64,000 nucleotides of DNA from Opitutus terrae PB90-1 (GTDB lineage Bacteria; Verrucomicrobiota; Verrucomicrobiia; Opitutales; Opitutaceae): positions 3,791,001 through 3,855,000 of the forward strand of contig NC_010571.1 of the NCBI RefSeq assembly GCF_000019965.1, given 5' to 3'. The translations under genes and the position numbers were made by a program. Shown piece after piece: positions 3,289-16,808 of this stretch (within the stretch, counting starts at the first letter, position 1; every line of letters begins with the position of its first letter). The notes below the pieces were generated by a model that did not search any database, was not told the DNA's origin, and saw nothing but the letters and a program-made list of their open reading frames with translations.

Positions 3289-3457
3289 GACGCGACGCCC
3301 TCGTCGCGTCTGGTCGTCCATGGCCAAGCACGATCCTTCCTTGTAGCCGGCCTCGTTGAGGCCGGCGCCGGGGTCAACGACCCCGGCTACATCGAACGGT
3401 ATCGGTTCGGTGGGAGCGACGACGCCCTCGTCGCCGGAAGGACGCGACGAGGGCGTC
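3289..3457. repeat. Cluster of three intergenic palindromes
   Basis: This gap between two minus-strand genes holds no gene of its own, apart from the possible longer N-terminus of the first VCBS protein. It contains gacgcgacgccctcgtcg type hairpins at 3289-3310 and 3421-3457, and a tgtagccggc...ccccggctaca element at 3342-3391 with two hairpins. The CCCTCGTCGC class recurs at 11305-11356 and the TGTAGCCGG class elsewhere in the window. No transposase is nearby. They resemble REP/BIME-type elements. Confidence 0.8.
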
Positions 3458-3517
3458 GCGTCTCCAGTGAAGTCAGAAGACCTGCTCACGTTCGTTCGCG
3501 TCCGATGGTGACTAATC

Positions 3518-6500
3518 TCACGGCACGGGCTGCGGTTTCCCGGCGGGATGGGGAACGATCTCGTCCACCCAGCGAGTGTTGTAGTCCTTGATCCACGCGT
3601 CATCGAGGTGCGCGGGCCGCGCTTCCTTCCCGTAGGTTTGGTCGTCCATGCCGCTGTAAGGAAACGGCTCGAGCCGCCACCCTTGCTCGACGTGGAAGTC
3701 GGCGTCCTTGTCCCAACCAACCACGTGCAGGAAAAAGTCGCGCGTCATCCCGGGGGCGAGCGGCGGCAGCTGCGCGGCGTCGAACGACAGCGCGAGTTCG
3801 TCGCCCGCGGCGAGGAGTGCCAGCCGATCGTCGCGCCGCGCGACAAGTTCGTCCACGGCACCGTAACGCGTGAACCAGCCGCCGGGCGTGCGATCCCACG
3901 GCGGCACGCTCGAGACCTCGTCGTAGAGGGGCGTGAGCGGCAGCGACGGCGGCAGATCCGCGAATCGACCGTAGCCGTGCCAGCGCAGGTCGGTGCGCGT
4001 TGCGTTGAGGTGCTGCTCGCGGGTGTCGATGGTGCCGGCATCTTCGCAGAGCGAGGCAGCGTCCCAGTAGATTTCATAGGCAGTGGAGAGCCGCAGTCGG
4101 CGCGCGCCGGTGGGCAGCTTGCCGGCGAGATCGACCAGAATCGTTTTCGTTTTGCCCGCGGGCGTACCGACGACAACGTCCACCTTCTGCCACGCGCCGT
4201 CGGCGAGTTCCACCTCGAGGCCGGGAAACGGAAACGGCAGCGTCGGGTCAATCGAGCCCGAGATGTTCGCCATCCCGCCGCCGAACCGAATCCAGCCGGT
4301 GAGCGCCAACACCAGCGGCCGCTCGGCCGCCAACACTCCAAAGTCGAGGGTGACGGCGTACGGCTCCGCGAGTCCGCGGAGTTGCGGCCGGCGCAACTGC
4401 ACCGGCGAAACCATCACGTGGTCGATTCGTGCCAACGCCGCAGTCACGTCGAGATTGTCGCTGCGCGTCGCCTGGTGCGGAGCCGAGAGCGGACGCAGCA
4501 CCCGCAATGCGTGCTGCGGGAACGGCGGACCGGGCAGCATCTTGCTGGTTGGGTGCACCACGGTGCCGATCGGATGGTCGACGGCGATCAAGTGCGCCTC
4601 GTCGAGATAGAGCGCCTCGCGCAATTCCTCGGTGATTCGGATTTCGTAGGCGCCGTCGCGCGGGACGAAGGCCGTCTCGTTACCGAGCGCGAGCAACTCC
4701 TCGGGATCGGCCGCGACGAACCGTTTTTCGCTCATCGGCAAGCCGAGCGGGGCGGCGCCGAGGATATCGGTGACAAATTCGAAACGCGCGCCGCGCCAGA
4801 CGTAGAGATACGGGCATGAGCCGCTTGGCAGCGTCGGCTCGGCCACGGTGTGAACCTCGCGCGTGATCGGCACGTCGACCTGCGAGGTGGTGAGATCGAA
4901 CCAGCGGATCTTCAGCGCATCGAGCTGCCGATGCTGACCGACGCCAAGCTCCAATGGATTCTGCCGGACCGTGCGACGCGTGCGCCAGTTGCCGGCGGTG
5001 ACTTCGACGCGCACGCCGAGCGCGCTCGTGTTCGAGCGCTGACCGGCGAGCCGCAGCTTGAGCTGCAAGTTTTGATTGCCGCCGTCGTTGCGCCAAAAGC
5101 GCAGCCCCGCTTCGGATCCGGTCACGAAATCCGTGTCGCCGTCGGTGTCGAAATCCGCGGCGACGATTTCCTCGATCGGCCCGGCGGCGGTGAGTCCCAG
5201 CGCGGCGGTGACGTCGCGGAAGCCGGCGTTGCCGGCATTGCGCCAGATCCGAAGGCCCTGCGCGCCGCACGCGATCAAGTCGATCCAGCCATCGTTGTCG
5301 TAGTCGACGGGCAGCAGCTGCGCGACCGCGAACCCATTCAGCGGCAGCGTGCGGTTTTGGTGCGGCTCGCGCCCGACGAACTCGATCGCGTCGGCAGTCG
5401 CGAGGCATGCTTCGGCGCGGAGGTCGTTGTCGAAATCCGTTGTCGCGATCACCGCGCCGGTCGGCCACGTGCGGGTCAGCTCGGTCGGGGTGAACGCCGC
5501 CGCACGCTGCTTGGCAAAAAAAACCGGCGCGCTGCTGGTGCGTGCAACAAACACACCAGGCCGTCCTTCGTTGGCCCAGTCTTCGGTCAGCACGTGCGTG
5601 GCGCCCGGAACGTCTGCGGGCAGACCGGAGTCGGACCAGTTCGCGTCGAAGGCCAGGTTGCCGAGGTTGCGCCGGACGCCGAGCCCGGAACCATCCGGCT
5701 TCACCACGAGCAGGTCGAGGTTACCGGTGAAATCGAGATCGGCGAGCAGTCCGCCGCGGGCCCGGAGACCTTCGAGTCCGGCGGCGCGCGTCGCGTCACG
5801 GACGCGGCCCTGGGCGTAAAACTTGAAGACGCGCGAATCCTGCTCGCCGAGCACGACCACGTCGTCGAGTCCGTCGTTGTCGAGATCGCCGGTGAGCGCG
5901 GTGCGATAGCCGCCGTCGGCCGGCACGCGCAGCGGTCGGCCCAGCGGAGCGAACTTGCCGGCGCGGTTGTCGAGCAGAACGAACCCGCTGGTCTGGTCCT
6001 GCACGAAAAGGCTCGGCCGGCCATCGTGGCCGTAGTCGACGATCGCCAGTGGTCCGCGATGACTCGCTGCCAGCTCACCGAAGACGGCGACGGTGTCGTC
6101 GGCGAAACGCACGGCGATGCCGTCGTGTTCGGGTTGGGCGAGGACGAACGGCGCGAGCGGCTGCGTGTGTTTGCAGCGCTCGAGCGCGGCGACGGTGATG
6201 GAGGCTGCCGAGAGTCCCGCGAGGATTTGCTGGTGCTGCTGGAGCTCGCGCGTGGCGTCTTCGGCGCGACCAACGCGACGATAGAGCTGGCTGAGTTGAT
6301 AATGAGCCGAGGGATGGGCGGGCTCGGCGCGGACGACGCTCTCGAACAGGCTGATCGCATCGGGCAAGTGGCCGAGTTCCCGCTGGGCCATGCCCATCTG
6401 AAAATCGAGCGCGGGAATGCCGGGTTCAATCTTCCATGACTGTTGAAACGCCTCGGCAGCGGGCTCGGGCTGGTTCTGGCGGAGCAGGGCGCAGCCGAGC

Positions 6501-6832
6501 AGGTAGTAGGCGGCAGCGTTGTTGCGATCGAGGTCGAGCACCTGGCGGCAGGCCGCGGCGGCGTCCATGGGTCGCTCCGCGAGCAGGTAGGCGTTGGCGA
6601 GGTTGAGCCGGACATCGGTGCTTTGCGGCGAGAGCGGCAGGGCCCGGGTGTAAACATCGATCGCCCCGGCGGCGTCGCCGTTCTCGAGCAGTCCGTTGCC
6701 GCGCGTCATTAGCTGCATGAACTCGGCGGACGTCGCGTGGGACGAGCGCGAAGCCGGCGAAAACCACAGGAGGGCCGCGGCAATCACGAGGATCAAAACG
6801 GCACCGCTGATCCAGATCAGGCGCTTGGACAT
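3518..6832 (-). CDS. TPR plus VCBS/UnbV giant envelope protein
   Basis: The 1104-residue protein has an N-terminal membrane anchor or uncleaved signal (LIWISGAVLILVIAAALLWF, residues 4-23). Four to five tetratricopeptide repeats follow at about residues 40-210 (for example NAAAYYLLGCALLRQNQPEP). VCBS repeats at about 250-600 contain DLDNDGLDDVVVLG, DFDNDLRAEACLA and DFDTDGDTDFVTG, and a weak UnbV/ASPIC segment lies near 610-670. The 430-residue C-terminal region starts at YLYVWRGARFEFVTDILGAA. I recognise it as recurring in TPR/CRTAC1 fusions but cannot assign a function. It is probably exposed outside the inner membrane and may scaffold protein assemblies through its TPRs. It sits directly behind the other VCBS gene on the same strand with a 304-bp repeat-filled gap, so co-transcription is uncertain. 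Confidence 0.85.
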   Translation of the reverse strand: MSKRLIWISGAVLILVIAAALLWFSPASRSSHATSAEFMQLMTRGNGLLENGDAAGAIDVYTRALPLSPQSTDVRLNLANAYLLAERPMDAAAACRQVLDLDRNNAAAYYLLGCALLRQNQPEPAAEAFQQSWKIEPGIPALDFQMGMAQRELGHLPDAISLFESVVRAEPAHPSAHYQLSQLYRRVGRAEDATRELQQHQQILAGLSAASITVAALERCKHTQPLAPFVLAQPEHDGIAVRFADDTVAVFGELAASHRGPLAIVDYGHDGRPSLFVQDQTSGFVLLDNRAGKFAPLGRPLRVPADGGYRTALTGDLDNDGLDDVVVLGEQDSRVFKFYAQGRVRDATRAAGLEGLRARGGLLADLDFTGNLDLLVVKPDGSGLGVRRNLGNLAFDANWSDSGLPADVPGATHVLTEDWANEGRPGVFVARTSSAPVFFAKQRAAAFTPTELTRTWPTGAVIATTDFDNDLRAEACLATADAIEFVGREPHQNRTLPLNGFAVAQLLPVDYDNDGWIDLIACGAQGLRIWRNAGNAGFRDVTAALGLTAAGPIEEIVAADFDTDGDTDFVTGSEAGLRFWRNDGGNQNLQLKLRLAGQRSNTSALGVRVEVTAGNWRTRRTVRQNPLELGVGQHRQLDALKIRWFDLTTSQVDVPITREVHTVAEPTLPSGSCPYLYVWRGARFEFVTDILGAAPLGLPMSEKRFVAADPEELLALGNETAFVPRDGAYEIRITEELREALYLDEAHLIAVDHPIGTVVHPTSKMLPGPPFPQHALRVLRPLSAPHQATRSDNLDVTAALARIDHVMVSPVQLRRPQLRGLAEPYAVTLDFGVLAAERPLVLALTGWIRFGGGMANISGSIDPTLPFPFPGLEVELADGAWQKVDVVVGTPAGKTKTILVDLAGKLPTGARRLRLSTAYEIYWDAASLCEDAGTIDTREQHLNATRTDLRWHGYGRFADLPPSLPLTPLYDEVSSVPPWDRTPGGWFTRYGAVDELVARRDDRLALLAAGDELALSFDAAQLPPLAPGMTRDFFLHVVGWDKDADFHVEQGWRLEPFPYSGMDDQTYGKEARPAHLDDAWIKDYNTRWVDEIVPHPAGKPQPVP

Positions 6833-7303: not shown

Positions 7304-9418
7304 TTACTCCGGCCGGGTGTAGGTCTCGAACGTCGGCGCGGCGGCGGCCATCTTGAGGAACACGTCGAGCGGCACCACCTCGAACGCGGGCCCGAGTTGA
7401 TCGAGCACCGACTTCACCCGGCTGATGTCGCTCCACTGCCGCACGTGCATGAGCAGGAAATACGGCCGGTCCCGATTGATCGCGGCGAGTTCGAGCAAGT
7501 CGGCGACGACCTCGCGCTCCGCTTTGCCCTCGGCCAGATAGTAATCATAGGACACCAGCGCGCGACCCTCCTTGCGCATGAAGGTGTAGGCCGGGGCATA
7601 GCCATTGATGAACCCGATCGCCTCCGGCATTTCCTTCAGGTAAATGTCGATCAGCGACTGCGGCAGGTCGGGATTCCCCTCGACCGACGCGCCCTCGGAA
7701 TAGTCCATGAATTCGTGGATGTTCAGATCGAGCGTTTTCATTTGCTCGCGCGATTTGGCGATCGCGGCCGGCAGCGCGTCGCGGGGAATCGCCTTGGCGT
7801 ACATGTAGCCGGGGCCCGAAAGTCCACCGATGAAGAGGTCGTTCGGCGTGGCCTGATCGTAGAACATCTCGAGCACCGAAGGTGACATCCACAGCCAGTT
7901 CATCGTCACTTGCCACGCATACGGAATCGTGCCGCGCCCGGGCCGCGTCCACGCGCCGATGCCGAGCGAGTCGGTCTGCACCGCGGCGAGGTAGACTTTC
8001 TTTTGGGGCGTGACGGTCGCGTTCGGTTGCACGTTGTGGCGGTTCCGGAAGGTGTAGCCCGGCGTGAGCGGCACCTGGGTGTTGAAGCTCGTGTTGGGCA
8101 ACGTGTGCAGGCCGTCCACGCGGACGACGTGCGATGACGCCAGCTTCACGTGATCGCGCTCCTTATCCTTGCCGTAGGAGTGCCAGCCGAAGCACATCGC
8201 CATCCGGTTCATCTCGGAGAGGAGCTTGTCCGCGAGCTGGTACTCTTCGGCCCATTTGGGGTTGTTCGCGTCGGTCGAGAGATCGGTGAAGAAGCAGCGG
8301 TGGTACATCCCGAAATCGGCCACGCCCGGTCGCATCCGCCGGCCGCCATCGCCGCCCATCCAGCAGATGTAGTCCTTGCTGCAGCGCTTCCAGTACTGGT
8401 CGTAGGCCCACTGGTAGATTTGCACATCGCTCTGGCCGGTGAACTGCCCGCGGAAATCCGCGACCGGCTTGAGCCCGAGCTCCTGCATCAGCGGAATCAG
8501 TTCCTCCGACACCACGATCGCGTCCTCGAGCCCCGCGACCGTGAACGAAACGATCAACGAGGTGCGCACGGCTTTGTCCCATACCACATAGCTGTGCACC
8601 TGGTCCTTGAAAGTGGTCAGCGCCTGACGCAGCGAGGTGAGCTGCTTGAACGAGAACTGTTTTTTCTGCTGGTAGAATTCCTTGATCTGACCGGTGAAAC
8701 GATAGTCCCACTCCGGACCGTAGACGAAGTAGAGCAGCGGCCCGTGGCGGTTGACGACGCCCTGGAGTGTGATCAACGCGGCTTGCGTGGGCAGGTCGCC
8801 GTCAATGTCCCAGTTGTCGGTCATCTTCATGGAATAGGCGTCACGGTAGCCGGCGCGCTTGAAGCGATACACGAGCGGGTCGTCGGCGGGGCGGGTGGGG
8901 CGTTGCACCAGCCAGGTGAGCACCGTGCCGTCGGTGTTCAGCGACAGTGACGCGCTGCCATCCAAGACGCGCCGGCCTTGCTGGGCGTGGATCGGTAGCT
9001 TGTCCTGCAGGAGGAGTTCCGCGAAGGGAGCGCCCTTCCAGTGTGCGACGATCTCGCGCGTGGCGCCGACGTCGCGCCGCACACCCATGAAAACATTCCC
9101 GCCAAAAAACTTGTGGGTGACCGGCACCGAGTTGACCGCGCCGCCCAGCCGTAGATCGAGCGGCTCGTCCACCGAGCGCTGCGCGCCCCAATGCACGATC
9201 AGGTGCACGCGGTCCGGCGAGACGGACTTGAAGTCGAGCGACACAGTGTCGAACACGTCGACCGTGCTGCTTTGCTCCGGGATCATCACCCAGCTGCCTT
9301 CCCAGCTTGGGGCGGTGAATTCCGCGCGAGCCGCGGCGGCGGTGAAGAGCAGGCTCCAGCCGATCAGGCAGAGCGATCCGGGGAAACGAAAGCGGCGAAC
9401 GAGTGAGAACAGGGACAT
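7304..9418 (-). CDS. Secreted GxGYxYP-domain protein, putative glycoside hydrolase
   Basis: The 704-residue secreted protein starts at the ATG at 9418, which gives a good Sec signal peptide (SLCLIGWSLLFTAAAARA). A TTG 90 bp upstream would add a non-signal extension. The C-terminal half carries GLSGPGYMYAKAIP, a match to the GxGYxYP motif that names its family, and the N-terminal half matches the paired domain (ALITLQGVVNRHGPLLYFVY). The family is associated with polysaccharide-degrading bacteria and is predicted to be hydrolytic, but its reaction is not established to my knowledge. The motif here reads GPGYMYA rather than ending in YP. It is a single gene, convergent with nothing on its 3' side. 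Confidence 0.82.
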   Translation of the reverse strand: MSLFSLVRRFRFPGSLCLIGWSLLFTAAAARAEFTAPSWEGSWVMIPEQSSTVDVFDTVSLDFKSVSPDRVHLIVHWGAQRSVDEPLDLRLGGAVNSVPVTHKFFGGNVFMGVRRDVGATREIVAHWKGAPFAELLLQDKLPIHAQQGRRVLDGSASLSLNTDGTVLTWLVQRPTRPADDPLVYRFKRAGYRDAYSMKMTDNWDIDGDLPTQAALITLQGVVNRHGPLLYFVYGPEWDYRFTGQIKEFYQQKKQFSFKQLTSLRQALTTFKDQVHSYVVWDKAVRTSLIVSFTVAGLEDAIVVSEELIPLMQELGLKPVADFRGQFTGQSDVQIYQWAYDQYWKRCSKDYICWMGGDGGRRMRPGVADFGMYHRCFFTDLSTDANNPKWAEEYQLADKLLSEMNRMAMCFGWHSYGKDKERDHVKLASSHVVRVDGLHTLPNTSFNTQVPLTPGYTFRNRHNVQPNATVTPQKKVYLAAVQTDSLGIGAWTRPGRGTIPYAWQVTMNWLWMSPSVLEMFYDQATPNDLFIGGLSGPGYMYAKAIPRDALPAAIAKSREQMKTLDLNIHEFMDYSEGASVEGNPDLPQSLIDIYLKEMPEAIGFINGYAPAYTFMRKEGRALVSYDYYLAEGKAEREVVADLLELAAINRDRPYFLLMHVRQWSDISRVKSVLDQLGPAFEVVPLDVFLKMAAAAPTFETYTRPE

Positions 9419-9829
9419 GAGGGGGACTGGGTTGGCGTTGGCTTCATCCACGATGAAGACGACATTAGACTTGGCCTCACCCCAGCAGCAGTTTCGGCGA
9501 TCGGGCAACCCTCATCGGCCGCGGGGAAATTTCATTAGCTTTCATTAATACGATCAGGAGCTGGGCGGCGCGGAGTAGCACGGGCATCCTGCCCGGAAGA
9601 AGGCTCGGGCTTGTTGCTGGTCTGCTGCTCGCCGACGACTGCTGTTCACGGCGCCGCCGGCGCGCTGGCGAGCCGAAGCGCCCTCCACGGGCGGACGCTC
9701 CGTGCCACATCGACGCGCGCGTTTCGCGTTGCTTCCCGCCCGGCGAACGGTTGGCGTGCGGACCCAATTCGCGCCGGCGCCGGCTATCCGGCGCTCAGCT
9801 CGGATCCTCCGCTTTCCACTCCTCACCCC
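9419..9829. other. Divergent intergenic region with a short palindrome
   Basis: This gap separates the GxGYxYP gene (minus) from the asparagine-synthase-like gene (plus), so promoters for both must lie here, but I cannot pick convincing -35/-10 boxes. Near 9578-9598 is gcacgggcatcctgcccgg, a hairpin of the GCACGGGC class that also occurs at 44584 and 58208. The ORF that extends the plus-strand gene upstream has Arg/Ala-rich random-looking sequence and is not believed. Confidence 0.5.
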
Positions 9830-11149
9830 ATGGACGACTATATCGAACGGCTCGTGGATCTCATCGATCCTGCCTCACATCGCCTGCACAATATGACCAT
9901 CGAAGCGGCGCGCGAGCGGATCCTCAACGGCTCGCCCGAGTCGGTGCGCGAAATCGACGGTTCGTTCGCGATCGTCGCGCGCGAGGGCAAGCGCGTGCGG
10001 ATGGCGCGCTCGCTCGACCGGCCGATGCGCTACTTCCTCGCCAAACGCCGCGAGGGTCCGGCGCTGATCGTCGCCGATCGGATCGACGCGATCCACGAGC
10101 AGTTGAAACGCGAAGGACTCGACCGGCAATTTCACCCGAGCTACACGCGAATGGTCCCGGCGCACTACGTGATCGAGCTGCAGCTCATCGGCTGCCCGGA
10201 TCCCGATCCCACCTACACGCGGTATTTCACGCCGGAGCGCAACGCGCTGCCGGCCGACCTCGACGCGATTGGCCGGGCCTACATCGGCGCGCTGGCCGAC
10301 GAGGTTGCGAAATGGCTCCGCAGCATGCCCGAGCACGAGCCGATTGGCGTGTGCTTCTCGGGCGGCGTCGATAGCGGCGCCGTGTTCGTGACCGTCTACG
10401 AAGTGATGCGGAAGCTCGGGATGAATCCCGCGCGACTGAAGGCATTCACGCTCGACTTCGGCGACGGGCCGGATGTCCGGCAGGCGCGGGAGTTTTTGGA
10501 GCGACTCGGGCTCGGACTGTTCCTGGAGACGATTGAGGCGGATCCGGCTTCGCTGAACGTCGCGGACACGCTGCGGGTCCTGGAGGATTACAAGCCGCTC
10601 GATGTCGAATGCGCTTCGATGGTGCTGGCGTTGTGCCGCGGCATCCGCGCGCGTTATCCGGAGTGGCGGCTGCTCGTCGATGGCGACGGTGGCGACGAGA
10701 ATCTGAAGGACTATCCGATCGAGGAGAATCCGGAGCTCACGATCCGCAGTGTCGTCAACAATCTCATGCTCTACCACGAAGGCTGGGGCGTCGGTCGGAT
10801 CAAACACTCGCTGACTTACAGCGGCGGGCTGAGCCGCAGCTACGCGCGGACCTATGCGCCGGCGCGGCAGTGCGGGTTCGAAGACTTCAGTCCGTTTACG
10901 AGGCCGGCCGTGATCGCGGTGGCCGAAGGCATTCCCTTCGCCACGCTGAGCGAGATGTCGGTGGACCGACTCTACTCGTTGAAAGGCGAGGTCGCGCGGC
11001 GCGGGATCAAGGTACATTTCGGCATCGACCTGCCGGTGTTCGAAAAGCGGCGGTTCCAGCACGGCGCGATTCCGGTGCAGCAGCTGCGCGAGCGGCTCAA
11101 CACTCGCGAAGCCGATTACCGGCGACAGTATCACGCGCTGTACCAATAG
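9830..11149 (+). CDS. Asparagine-synthase-like ATP-dependent amidotransferase without glutaminase cysteine
   Basis: The 439-residue protein has the PP-loop ATP pyrophosphatase motif SGGVDSG at residues 177-183 and GDGGDENLKDY near residue 285, the position of the AsnB loop GEGADELFGGY. The first 110 residues look like a degenerate Ntn glutaminase domain (IDGSFAIVA, MARSLDRPMRYF). However, the residue after Met is Asp, not the catalytic Cys, so it cannot hydrolyse glutamine in the AsnB way. It should activate a carboxylate as an acyl-adenylate and transfer ammonia or another amine. The ATG at 9830 begins MDDYIERL, and the sequence upstream of it is random-looking. A radical SAM gene follows 230 bp downstream on the same strand. 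The substrate is unknown. Confidence 0.8.
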   Translation: MDDYIERLVDLIDPASHRLHNMTIEAARERILNGSPESVREIDGSFAIVAREGKRVRMARSLDRPMRYFLAKRREGPALIVADRIDAIHEQLKREGLDRQFHPSYTRMVPAHYVIELQLIGCPDPDPTYTRYFTPERNALPADLDAIGRAYIGALADEVAKWLRSMPEHEPIGVCFSGGVDSGAVFVTVYEVMRKLGMNPARLKAFTLDFGDGPDVRQAREFLERLGLGLFLETIEADPASLNVADTLRVLEDYKPLDVECASMVLALCRGIRARYPEWRLLVDGDGGDENLKDYPIEENPELTIRSVVNNLMLYHEGWGVGRIKHSLTYSGGLSRSYARTYAPARQCGFEDFSPFTRPAVIAVAEGIPFATLSEMSVDRLYSLKGEVARRGIKVHFGIDLPVFEKRRFQHGAIPVQQLRERLNTREADYRRQYHALYQ

Positions 11150-11167
11150 CACGGCGGCCGGAGGCCT

Positions 11168-11356
11168 TGTTCACCACGGATTTCACGGATGACCACGGAT
11201 TCGGTGGCCCCTGTCCGCACCCATCGGTGCAATCTGTGTTTCGTTCCGGTGCGATGATCGTGCACGCGCAACTTGCATCGTCCCGCCAGCGGTCGGCTGG
11301 AGCCGCGGCGCCCTCGTCGCGGTCTTTGACTGAGACGCGACGAGGGCGTCGCGTCC
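11168..11356. repeat. ACGGAT-type repeat plus CCCTCGTCGC palindrome
   Basis: At 11171-11199 the unit ccacggatttcacggatgac is part of an ACGGAT tandem-like motif, followed by catcggtgcaatctgtg. At 11305-11356 the arms gcgccctcgtcgcg and cgcgacgagggcgtcgc form an inverted repeat of the class also found at 3289-3457. Together they fill the gap between the synthase-like and radical SAM genes, so the two may have separate promoters. Confidence 0.7.
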
Positions 11357-11379
11357 CCATCAAACCACCGGGCTAAAGC

Positions 11380-12348
11380 ATGGCATCCGTTGTTCCCTCG
11401 GAAGATCGCACCGCCTGGATTCTCGCGCAGCGACCGGCGCGAACGCGGACGCCGGATCCGAACGCGCCGCACGGAGTTTTTCTGGAGCGCGAGCGGCTCG
11501 CGTCCGGTGAGGTCGTCGATACCGGCGTCGTGCTGCTGACGAACCGCGAGTGTCCGTGGAAGTGCCTGATGTGCGATCTGTGGAAGGACACCACGCGCGA
11601 GACCGTGCCGGCGGGCGCGATCCCGCGGCAGCTCGACGCGGCGCTGCAGACGTGGACCCAAGCGGGAAAACGACCCGCACAGGTGAAACTCTACAACAGC
11701 GGCAGCTTCTTCGACGTGGCCGCGATTCCGCCGATCGACTACGCGCCGGTGGCGCGCCGGCTCGCGTTTGCGCGGCACGTGGTGGTGGAGTCGCATCCGC
11801 TGCTGATCGGCGATCGCGCGGTGCTTTTCCGGGATTTGCTGGACGGCTCGCTCGAGGTGGCGATGGGACTCGAAACGGCGCATCCGGAGGTGCTGGGAAA
11901 GCTGAACAAGAAATTCGACCTGGCGCAGTTCGCGCGGGCGGCGGAGTTTCTGGCGAACCATCAGATCGCGCTGCGCGTTTTCCTGCTCGTGAATCCGCCG
12001 TTCCTGAGCGGCGCCGAGGCGGCAGAGTGGGTGGTGAAATCGGCGGAGTTTGCGTTCGGGTGTGGCGCGAGCGCGGTGACGCTGATCCCGACCCGCGACG
12101 GCAACGGCGCGATCGAGCGGTTGCGCGAGTCGGGCGAGTTCGTGCCGCCCACACTCGCCGAGTTGGAGTCGGCCCATCGTGCGGCGCTGGCGATCGGGCG
12201 CGGCCGCGTGTTCGTCGACACGTGGGCGCTGGAGCCGTTCTCCACGTGTCCGCACTGCTTCGCCGCCCGCTGCGGCCGACTGGAACGGCTGAACCTCACG
12301 CAATCCGACGAGCCGGCGGTGAGCTGCGATTGCTGCGGCGCGAGTTGA
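11380..12348 (+). CDS. Radical SAM protein, RaSEA/Elp3-like
   Basis: The 322-residue protein carries the radical SAM [4Fe-4S] motif CPWKCLMC (Cys58, Cys62, Cys65; CxxxCxxC). Downstream KLYNSGSFFD and GLETAHPEVLGKLNKKFD resemble the barrel motifs of the Elp3/RaSEA branch, which includes the archaeosine-forming radical SAM enzyme. The last 60 residues are Cys-rich (STCPHC, ARCGRL, CDCCGAS) and could bind zinc or a second Fe-S cluster. It lies downstream of an ATP-dependent amide-forming protein, which suggests a shared pathway. The resemblance to RaSEA is by motif only and the reaction is unassigned. Confidence 0.8.
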   Translation: MASVVPSEDRTAWILAQRPARTRTPDPNAPHGVFLERERLASGEVVDTGVVLLTNRECPWKCLMCDLWKDTTRETVPAGAIPRQLDAALQTWTQAGKRPAQVKLYNSGSFFDVAAIPPIDYAPVARRLAFARHVVVESHPLLIGDRAVLFRDLLDGSLEVAMGLETAHPEVLGKLNKKFDLAQFARAAEFLANHQIALRVFLLVNPPFLSGAEAAEWVVKSAEFAFGCGASAVTLIPTRDGNGAIERLRESGEFVPPTLAELESAHRAALAIGRGRVFVDTWALEPFSTCPHCFAARCGRLERLNLTQSDEPAVSCDCCGAS

Positions 12349-15902: not shown

Positions 15903-16181
15903 ATGAAATCGACCCGGGTCGTCGTGCTTTGGCGCGGAGGGCTGCATCTTCGGCCCGCCACCACGCTCGTCCGCACCGCGAAGCGCTACAGCTCTTTGGT
16001 GTGGCTGCGTTGTGGCGGACGGATCGCGGATTTGCGCAGCATTCTGAGCGTGCTCGCGTTGTGCGCGTCGATGGGATCGGTCGTGGAGATCGACGTGGAC
16101 GGCCCGGACGAGGGAGACGCCCTCCAGGCGATCGAGGCTGTCTTCGCGAGCAACGCCGACCGGCAGAGTCAATCGGACTAG
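15903..16181 (+). CDS. HPr-like phosphocarrier protein
   Basis: The 92-residue protein has the HPr fold signature GLHLRPA with His15 at the canonical phosphorylation position, and Ser46 in RSILSV, the site used by HPr kinase in other bacteria. DGPDEGDALQAIEA is the typical C-terminal helix. It probably accepts phosphate from enzyme I and takes part in PTS-type signalling rather than sugar import, because no EII gene is present in the window. The start at 15903 gives MKSTRVVVLW. The stop codon overlaps the first bases of an inverted-repeat element at 16180. Confidence 0.8.
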   Translation: MKSTRVVVLWRGGLHLRPATTLVRTAKRYSSLVWLRCGGRIADLRSILSVLALCASMGSVVEIDVDGPDEGDALQAIEAVFASNADRQSQSD

Positions 16182-16340: not shown

Positions 16341-16808
16341 TCAGCTGCGACAGTCCACCACATCGTTCTGCGCGCGGACCAGACCGCGCAGACAGCAACA
16401 CGCGCCGGCGCAAGTGTTGTCGCGGGGGGTAGGCGCGGACCAGGTGGGCGCGGCGGCGGCAAACTGCCCAGCTTCGCACCCGTTGGCGCCCGGCCTCAGC
16501 GTGCCGGTGAGCCAAGCCTGGACCAGCGTGAGCGGAACTTCGGGCCGAACACCCGCGACGACCTTGAGGCCGCCGGCGGCCAGTCGTTGGAGCGCCCCCT
16601 CGGAAATGGCGCCGGCGAGGAACACCGTCACGCCCCGGGCCCCGAGCCAGTTTCCCCAACCGCACGGCAGCCGGACGGGTGGCTTGGTCACGTCGAACCG
16701 CACGATCCGGCGCCCGGCGGTATCGAGGGTGAACAAGCCGACCTTCGCCGCCGCACCGAAGTGCACGGAGAACTCGTTGGCTGCAGTGAGTGGAACAGCA
16801 ATCGTCAC
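16341..16808 (-). CDS. NifX/NifB-type dinitrogenase cofactor-domain protein
   Basis: The 155-residue protein begins TIAVPLTAANEFSVHFGAA, the hallmark of the dinitrogenase iron-molybdenum cofactor biosynthesis (NifX-like) domain that holds FeS or FeMo-co precursors. GAISEGALQRLAAGGLKVV continues the fold. The last 35 residues add a Cys cluster (TCAGACCC, and a final Cys). The start is a GTG. No nif genes are nearby, so it is more likely a general Fe-S or metal-cluster carrier than a nitrogen-fixation protein. Confidence 0.72.
   Translation of the reverse strand: MTIAVPLTAANEFSVHFGAAAKVGLFTLDTAGRRIVRFDVTKPPVRLPCGWGNWLGARGVTVFLAGAISEGALQRLAAGGLKVVAGVRPEVPLTLVQAWLTGTLRPGANGCEAGQFAAAAPTWSAPTPRDNTCAGACCCLRGLVRAQNDVVDCRS

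Follow-up and report, generated by a model that had tools for sequence, protein, structure and literature searches.

The question raised by this stretch of Opitutus terrae PB90-1 DNA (64,000 nucleotides of contig NC_010571.1, positions 3,791,001 to 3,855,000; hereafter named the window) is whether two neighbouring genes, one encoding a relative of the asparagine synthetases (AS) and the other a radical S-adenosylmethionine (SAM) protein, work together. Both open reading frames (ORFs) described in an earlier note on this DNA were found. Gene A (9830..11149, plus strand) encodes an asparagine-synthetase-like ATP pyrophosphatase of 439 amino acids (aa) with a truncated Ntn domain, and gene B (11380..12348, plus strand) encodes a RaSEA-like radical SAM protein of 322 aa. 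The two genes are inherited together, in most carriers with a third gene (gene C) for a flavoprotein. We see about an even chance that A and B catalyse consecutive steps of one uncharacterised pathway, in which C would provide a third step in most carriers.

The distribution of the genes was analysed with protein profiles. The B profile was made from the window and from genomes G140 and G387 to G391, the A profile from the window, G140, G388 and G391, and the C profile from G388 to G391; genomes that fed a profile match it by construction. A limited number of candidates was scored per genome (five for B, four for A and up to 19 for C in non-carriers), and misses are therefore possible. In 392 genomes from the phylum of G390 (locus L015, a metagenome-assembled genome (MAG) titled Planctomyces), the B profile matched 24 genomes at 1e-15. 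Strong matches (E 2.9e-77 or better) were obtained in 22 of them, and the two weak ones (G522 and G594, about 2e-18), which lack A, were not counted as carriers. The A profile detected exactly the 22 genomes with a strong B, and 370 genomes had neither gene. Identical totals and handles indicate that both searches covered the same 392 genomes, the non-matching handles being partly listed. In the order of G391 (L016, a MAG titled Pedosphaera), A was present in 57 of 136 genomes, and B was found in 54 of these 57 as compared with one of 23 genomes tested among the 79 without A. The pair is hence scattered in some groups and frequent in another, and because of this co-occurrence a chance pairing of A and B is very unlikely.

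Gene order was compared in the 27 genomes in which both genes were located (G000, which is the window's genome, G140, G387, G388, G390, G391 and 21 others from the 392-genome draw). In 20 of them B sits right next to A on the same strand, with gaps of -38 to +230 nt (several gene starts, and hence gap lengths, were set by hand), and their reading frames overlap in several genomes. The genes lie on the same strand but 850 to 2,393 nt apart in three genomes (G388, G764 and G698), on opposite strands and several kb apart in one (G390), and on different contigs in the remaining three (G478, G607 and G756). Of the 57 A loci in G391's order, 40 were fetched. B follows A directly, on the downstream side, in 19, lies at a greater distance within the fetched stretch in three and falls beyond it in 18; in 17 of these 18 genomes it was located elsewhere, and in G843 it was not found. 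Wherever the three genes are linked, the usual order is A-B-C on one strand.

An alternative in which A and B came to lie side by side by accident and serve different functions could invoke the 230-nt spacer of the window and the carriers in which the genes are unlinked. The coincidence of both genes in the same 22 genomes, the contrast between carriers and non-carriers of A in the second group and the overlapping reading frames speak against it, leaving it a practically negligible probability. The idea that A and B form a system is thus strongly supported, by adjacency in several lineages and by near-perfect co-occurrence even where the genes are unlinked; the situation that would have counted against it, namely genes that are not adjacent in relatives or that have known unrelated functions, was not encountered. 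The pathway had been proposed to consist of two genes. The A-B set stood, but three genes are usually involved, the third not being visible from the window.

The spacer between A and B in the window (11150..11379, plus strand) is 230 nt long and contains two hairpins, as compared with about 5 nt in the relative G140. The fold z-score of the hairpins is -2.78. An 18-base element, CGCGACGAGGGCGTCGCG, occurs as inverted pairs in this spacer and at 3291-3460; seven near matches were counted in the window against 2.05 expected, and the element resembles a dispersed palindromic repeat.

The next point is what gene A may do. To judge from its sequence, A belongs to the asparagine synthetase superfamily but is not a glutamine-hydrolysing asparagine synthetase. 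It matches the Pfam family Asn_synthase (PF00733) with E 2.7e-13 and 50.8 bits against a cut-off of 21 (residues 165-301 of the submitted fragment, which began at codon 2), whereas its score against NCBIfam TIGR01536, 50.7 bits, lies below the cut-off of 267.1. In the alignment with Escherichia coli AsnB, A begins at AsnB residue 85. About 84 residues from the start of the glutaminase domain are missing, so that A has neither Cys2 nor the beginning of the Ntn domain, in agreement with the degenerate domain without Cys2 that had been described before. The same alignment revealed that the ATP-binding loop SGGVDSG (residues 177-183; 10358..10378, plus strand) and the loop DGDGGDE are both retained.

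Conservation was assessed in alignments of 26 A, 28 B and 24 C proteins (the A and C sets exclude G387, which has runs of N, and the A set also excludes G389). Residues S177, G178, G179, D181, S182 and G183 of the ATP-binding loop are invariant in the 26 A proteins, and so are all 12 residues of DGDGGDENLKDY (residues 284-295; 10679..10714, plus strand), which include E290 and Y295, and K406 (11045..11047, plus strand), which aligns with the Lys of WRQKEQF in AsnB. In total, 141 of the 439 positions are invariant, and pairwise identity is 55-99% over trimmed columns for all pairs. Long invariant or nearly invariant stretches around QFHPSYTRMVPAH and KDYPI..N.ELTIRSV are peculiar to A when compared with AsnB. 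Correlations between tree distances (r 0.76 to 0.89) are uncorrected for species descent and no proof was taken from them.

Since the synthetase half of A is intact and the glutaminase half is not, A would be expected to bind ATP and adenylate a carboxylate, which would be attacked by free ammonia or an amine to give an amide; hydrolysis of glutamine by A itself would be impossible. The earlier note describes A as ammonia-dependent, which is plausible because A has no glutaminase; an amine, however, could equally well be the nucleophile. Judging by their spacing, E290 and Y295 may be equivalent to the Glu-Tyr dyad of AS-like enzymes. According to a 2026 preprint (PMC13060819), the dyad Glu363-Tyr368 is conserved in PesC, TsrC, ScdTA and AsnO, the fifth dyad-bearing AS-like enzyme being, as we interpret it, the E. 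coli AS, and mutation indicated that the dyad is important in PesC. This raises the alternative that A is a nitrile synthetase, which would amidate a carboxylate and then dehydrate the amide with a second ATP, as in PesC and in the proposed synthesis of preQ0. The AS-like domain and the Glu-Tyr pair are common to A and PesC, but the same residues are found in simple amidating enzymes and do not discriminate between the two activities, and a nitrile synthetase is decidedly unlikely.

Regarding gene B, its best NCBIfam match was RaSEA (TIGR01210), with 100.4 bits against a cut-off of 212.15, and seven relatives of B scored from 62.8 to 115.8 bits, all of them under the same cut-off. On these scores B is a real but distant relative of RaSEA and no member of the family by the curated cut-off, and the likeness proposed earlier was upheld. 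The radical SAM [4Fe-4S] motif CxxxCxxC is present as CPWKCLMC (residues 58-65; 11551..11574, plus strand), and the pattern is kept in the 28 B proteins. The motif KLYNSGSFFD (residues 103-112; 11686..11715, plus strand) and the Cys-rich tail (C290, C293, C298, C316, C318 and C319; 12247..12336, plus strand) were also found as described. Residues K103, L104, Y105, N106, F110 and D112 are invariant in all 28 proteins, but the tail is not general: 16 of the 28 retain a CxxC pair followed by a second pair, CxxC or CxC, and 12 have lost them. The tail was hence rejected as a defining part of B and, because of these 12 proteins, it is probably structural rather than catalytic. Invariant positions amount to 44 of 322, with pairwise identities of 34-95% over trimmed columns. 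In the B proteins of the MAG loci L013 (6001-7080) and L014 (297-1562), about 35 to 50 extra residues precede KLYN(S/N)GSFFD. This insert is not present in the other five aligned B proteins, and L014 has a second insert before LEVAMGLE.

The structure model of B was good (predicted local distance difference test (pLDDT) score of 91.1) and included the radical SAM barrel. When this model was used in Foldseek, the top two matches were Elp3 subunits with 10-13% identity, other radical SAM enzymes being close behind. VIA-align gave Z values of 14.1-16.4 among the matches listed, which included HydE, Elp3, NifB, queuine lyase, biotin synthase, RlmN and others; Elp3, with 14.2-16.2 among these listed matches, was tied with HydE, NifB, queuine lyase and others. 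B has 322 aa as compared with 388-538 for the listed Elp3 chains, and no GNAT domain was reported by Pfam. Searches of the PDB sequences gave nothing better than E 0.46 with the B profile and no match with the single B sequence. Since many radical SAM enzymes tie, the fold of B says nothing on its substrate. In the proposed pathway, B would form a 5'-deoxyadenosyl radical and rearrange or cleave the molecule on which A acts, either after or before A.

The relationship with RaSEA brings in archaeosine. According to PMC11298593, ArcS adds lysine to preQ0, RaSEA converts preQ0-Lys to archaeosine, the two proteins form a complex, and ArcS is homologous to ArcTGT. The archaeosine parallel drawn in the earlier note holds in that a nitrogen-bond-forming step is coupled to a RaSEA-type enzyme, but it is loose, the part of that article available to us not calling ArcS an amide-forming ATP enzyme. 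One explanation modelled on these enzymes is a transfer of nitrogen by ligation and cleavage, in which A would join an amino acid (e.g. lysine) to a carboxylate and B would cut the N-C bond to leave a primary amide. B as a relative of RaSEA, A without its glutaminase and the precedent of ArcS and RaSEA, by which one nitrogen is moved from lysine to preQ0, would all fit; however, B scores under the RaSEA cut-off, and A resembles asparagine synthetase only, so that the parallel with ArcS would be functional. Such a transfer is doubtful, although it keeps an appreciable minor probability.

A second explanation, also suggested by the similarity of B to RaSEA and Elp3, is an archaeosine-like or queuosine-like modification of a tRNA base in bacteria. 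QueC was over its cut-off in 25 of the 28 carriers, and TGT was detected in six of seven carriers tested. However, non-carriers have QueC about as often (20 of 23). QueC did not pass its cut-off in G388, G389 and G391, and no TGT was found in G388 (G389 and G391 have TGT); incomplete MAGs could explain both absences. The median pI of A and B is 5.44, and a Pfam search of the A and B proteins of the window gave no RNA-binding domain. As QueC is no commoner in carriers, the link to archaeosine or queuosine was not favoured. Nothing in the data connects the pair with 7-deazaguanine, and the data do not support the modified tRNA base that had been suggested as a product, which we consider quite unlikely.

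Gene C encodes a flavoprotein of about 500 aa and was detected by the profile search in 25 of the 28 carriers, in all 25 with E 4.7e-114 or better. It lies directly downstream of B in 13 carriers and elsewhere in the genome in 12 more. In five of the 13 linked loci B and C overlap by 4 nt, and in five others by 3 to 14 nt (starts as called). Among 79 non-carriers sampled from the 392-genome draw, the C profile matched three at 1e-30 (best 5.9e-81) and none at 1e-110. Among the PDB sequences, the C profile came nearest to the flavin-dependent phenol halogenase PltM (E 7.6e-68), followed by tetracycline 7-halogenase (E 6.6e-66), with about 410 residues aligned. The Lys of the GxKxGF stretch, which we take to be the catalytic Lys of flavin-dependent halogenases, aligns with that of PltM and is present in the 24 aligned C proteins. 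Twenty-one of these proteins contain the pattern GWxWxx(R or P)F, all with Arg, and it was not found in the other three; PltM has GWLWVIPF, the Ile-Pro stretch of which presumably corresponds to the halogenase motif WxWxIP. C is less uniform in sequence, with 42 invariant positions of 525 and pairwise identities of 30-94% over trimmed columns. As a PltM-like flavin enzyme, C would halogenate or hydroxylate an aromatic ring.

In order to find further members of the set, neighbouring ORFs were clustered, and families occurring in at least four loci were considered. Neither of two clusterings, the first with 28 B loci and 16 loci of unlinked A or C (median length of at least 110 aa) and the second with 40 A loci from G391's order and four earlier loci (median length of at least 130 aa), gave a fourth gene common across lineages. 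Apart from A, B and C, the recurring neighbours were shadow ORFs, DUF1501 proteins at scattered positions in 15 loci, an NfeD-like protein (by our own reading) in five loci and, in four, a protein of about 1,676 aa. Nine related genomes share a housekeeping flank comprising LigA, a GDP-mannose dehydratase-like protein and others. Short ORFs no further than 600 nt from any of the three genes were compared in 37 stretches; outside the nine-genome group none was common to more than two loci, and those common to two loci only were in L012/L014 and L067/L070.

These results bear on the maturation of a ribosomal peptide or protein, in which A would amidate or cyclise the peptide whereas B and C would modify side chains. 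Three C proteins score against QhpG with 62.0-80.6 bits, and QhpG works with the radical SAM protein QhpD. Activity on peptides is also described for AS-like enzymes, such as lasso cyclases and PesC, in PMC13060819. On the other side, no precursor candidate emerged from the short ORFs of the 37 stretches, and no peptidase, transporter or recognition domain recurs in the neighbourhood clusters, a distant precursor being possible. Peptide maturation appears unlikely.

What the analysis shows directly is the gene set with its sequence motifs, its joint inheritance and the usual order of linked copies. For the pathway of consecutive steps by A, B and, in most carriers, C, we infer from this adenylation of a carboxylate, an ammonia or amine donor, radical chemistry, oxidation of a ring and one common molecule on which all three proteins would act. 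No fourth gene common across lineages was found at the loci examined, and the genes occur in the same genomes also without linkage; the pathway therefore probably starts from a common metabolite of the cell and not from a compound made by a dedicated cluster. The combination of A and B, with or without C, had no description that we could find in the open-access literature, where most subscription papers are not covered; likewise, no characterised pathway with the A-B pair was found there, as the earlier note had anticipated. We regard it as an uncharacterised, well-supported gene set made of known enzyme families. The interest of the set lies in the joint inheritance, in two groups of environmental bacteria, of three enzyme families whose relatives are well studied. 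Since A is highly conserved and the set is small, the product is open to a direct search, either by deletion of one gene or by expression of the three.

Several observations weigh against this pathway. Co-inheritance is no proof that A, B and C act on one molecule. The structure model of A (pLDDT 48.3, from three sequences) was too poor for a fold search and nothing was drawn from it, so that the active site of A was assigned by sequence alignment. In the window's own phylum, A was found at 1e-30 in two of 387 genomes, i.e. the window's genome and G140, a member of the same family. The same two genomes had the strong B matches, with nine more genomes showing weak ones (1.6e-6 to 9e-4). The carriers in the order of G391 share no handle with this draw, and the search grouping therefore apparently places that order elsewhere. 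Within that order, three genomes have A without B and one has B without A, exceptions that may be due to incomplete assemblies. C was not found at 1e-60 by the profile search in G756, the window's genome and G140, nor even at 1e-3 by a single-query search in the last two, in which it hence cannot be essential to the work of A and B. In addition, halogenation by C is not secure, because the Ile-Pro of GWLWVIPF is missing.

Other settings were also tried as an origin or function for the genes. A defence system was rejected, no PADLOC match being obtained for A and B of the window or C of L013. A phage origin was rejected as well, since no relative of A or B was confirmed in viral contigs in scans with a few short peptide patterns. 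So was a plasmid origin: A had no match by tblastn in the plasmid collection, and B matched only two distant Streptomyces proteins. As for the surroundings of the pair in the window, two divergent minus-strand genes upstream of A encode a GxGYxYP putative glycoside hydrolase (7304-9508) and a protein containing both TPR and FG-GAP repeats (3518-6832). On the other side, a small HPr-like protein (PF00381, E 2.3e-22) is encoded at 15903-16181, and near it a match to the dinitrogenase FeMo-cofactor family (E 4.6e-7) was found on the minus strand at 16341-16808.

When the set is compared with known systems, A has the SGGxDS loop for ATP in common with AsnB, AsnO, TsrC, PesC and beta-lactam synthetase, and its Glu-Tyr pair is spaced like their dyad for activation of the carboxylate, but A differs from AsnB by the absence of the first residues (about 84) and by its own invariant or nearly invariant stretches. 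C resembles PltM and tetracycline 7-halogenase over the aligned region of about 410 residues and in the aligned Lys, whereas the Ile-Pro of GWLWVIPF in PltM reads x-Arg in C. A halogenase is also found with an asparagine-synthetase-like amidase in the case of ammosamide, where the accessible part of the source (PMC12715798) presents no A-B pair. The two Streptomyces plasmids, pFRL5 and pFRL3 (L084 and L085), encode RaSEA-like proteins 32.0% and 30.8% identical to B over 75% of B; that of pFRL5 scored 173.4 bits against the RaSEA cut-off of 212.15. Their neighbours are genes for a P450, a serine hydroxymethyltransferase, a glycosyltransferase 9 and a carbamoyltransferase, together with heptose genes, and the 24.7 kb shown of these loci contain no gene annotated as an asparagine synthase. 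These plasmid proteins indicate that relatives of RaSEA occur outside archaea in other settings too.

The closest comparison is that with ArcS and RaSEA of Euryarchaea, which, as A and B would, combine a RaSEA-family radical SAM protein with a partner that forms a nitrogen bond. The differences are that B remains at less than half of the bits set by the RaSEA cut-off (100.4 versus 212.15), that the partner A is an asparagine-synthetase-like ATP enzyme and not ArcS, and that a PltM-like flavoprotein usually accompanies the pair. Pursuing the analogy to its end, A and B might be the bacterial counterpart of ArcS and RaSEA in logic and not in descent: an ATP-dependent ligase would add an amino acid to a carboxylate, a radical SAM lyase would strip off the carbon skeleton to leave the amide, and C would halogenate the ring, yielding a new intracellular cofactor or signalling molecule of Verrucomicrobia and Planctomycetes. 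Taken as a whole this scheme is unlikely, but if it is true that a RaSEA-like enzyme cleaves the N-C bond in these bacteria, the chemistry of archaeosine would have a wider bacterial use.

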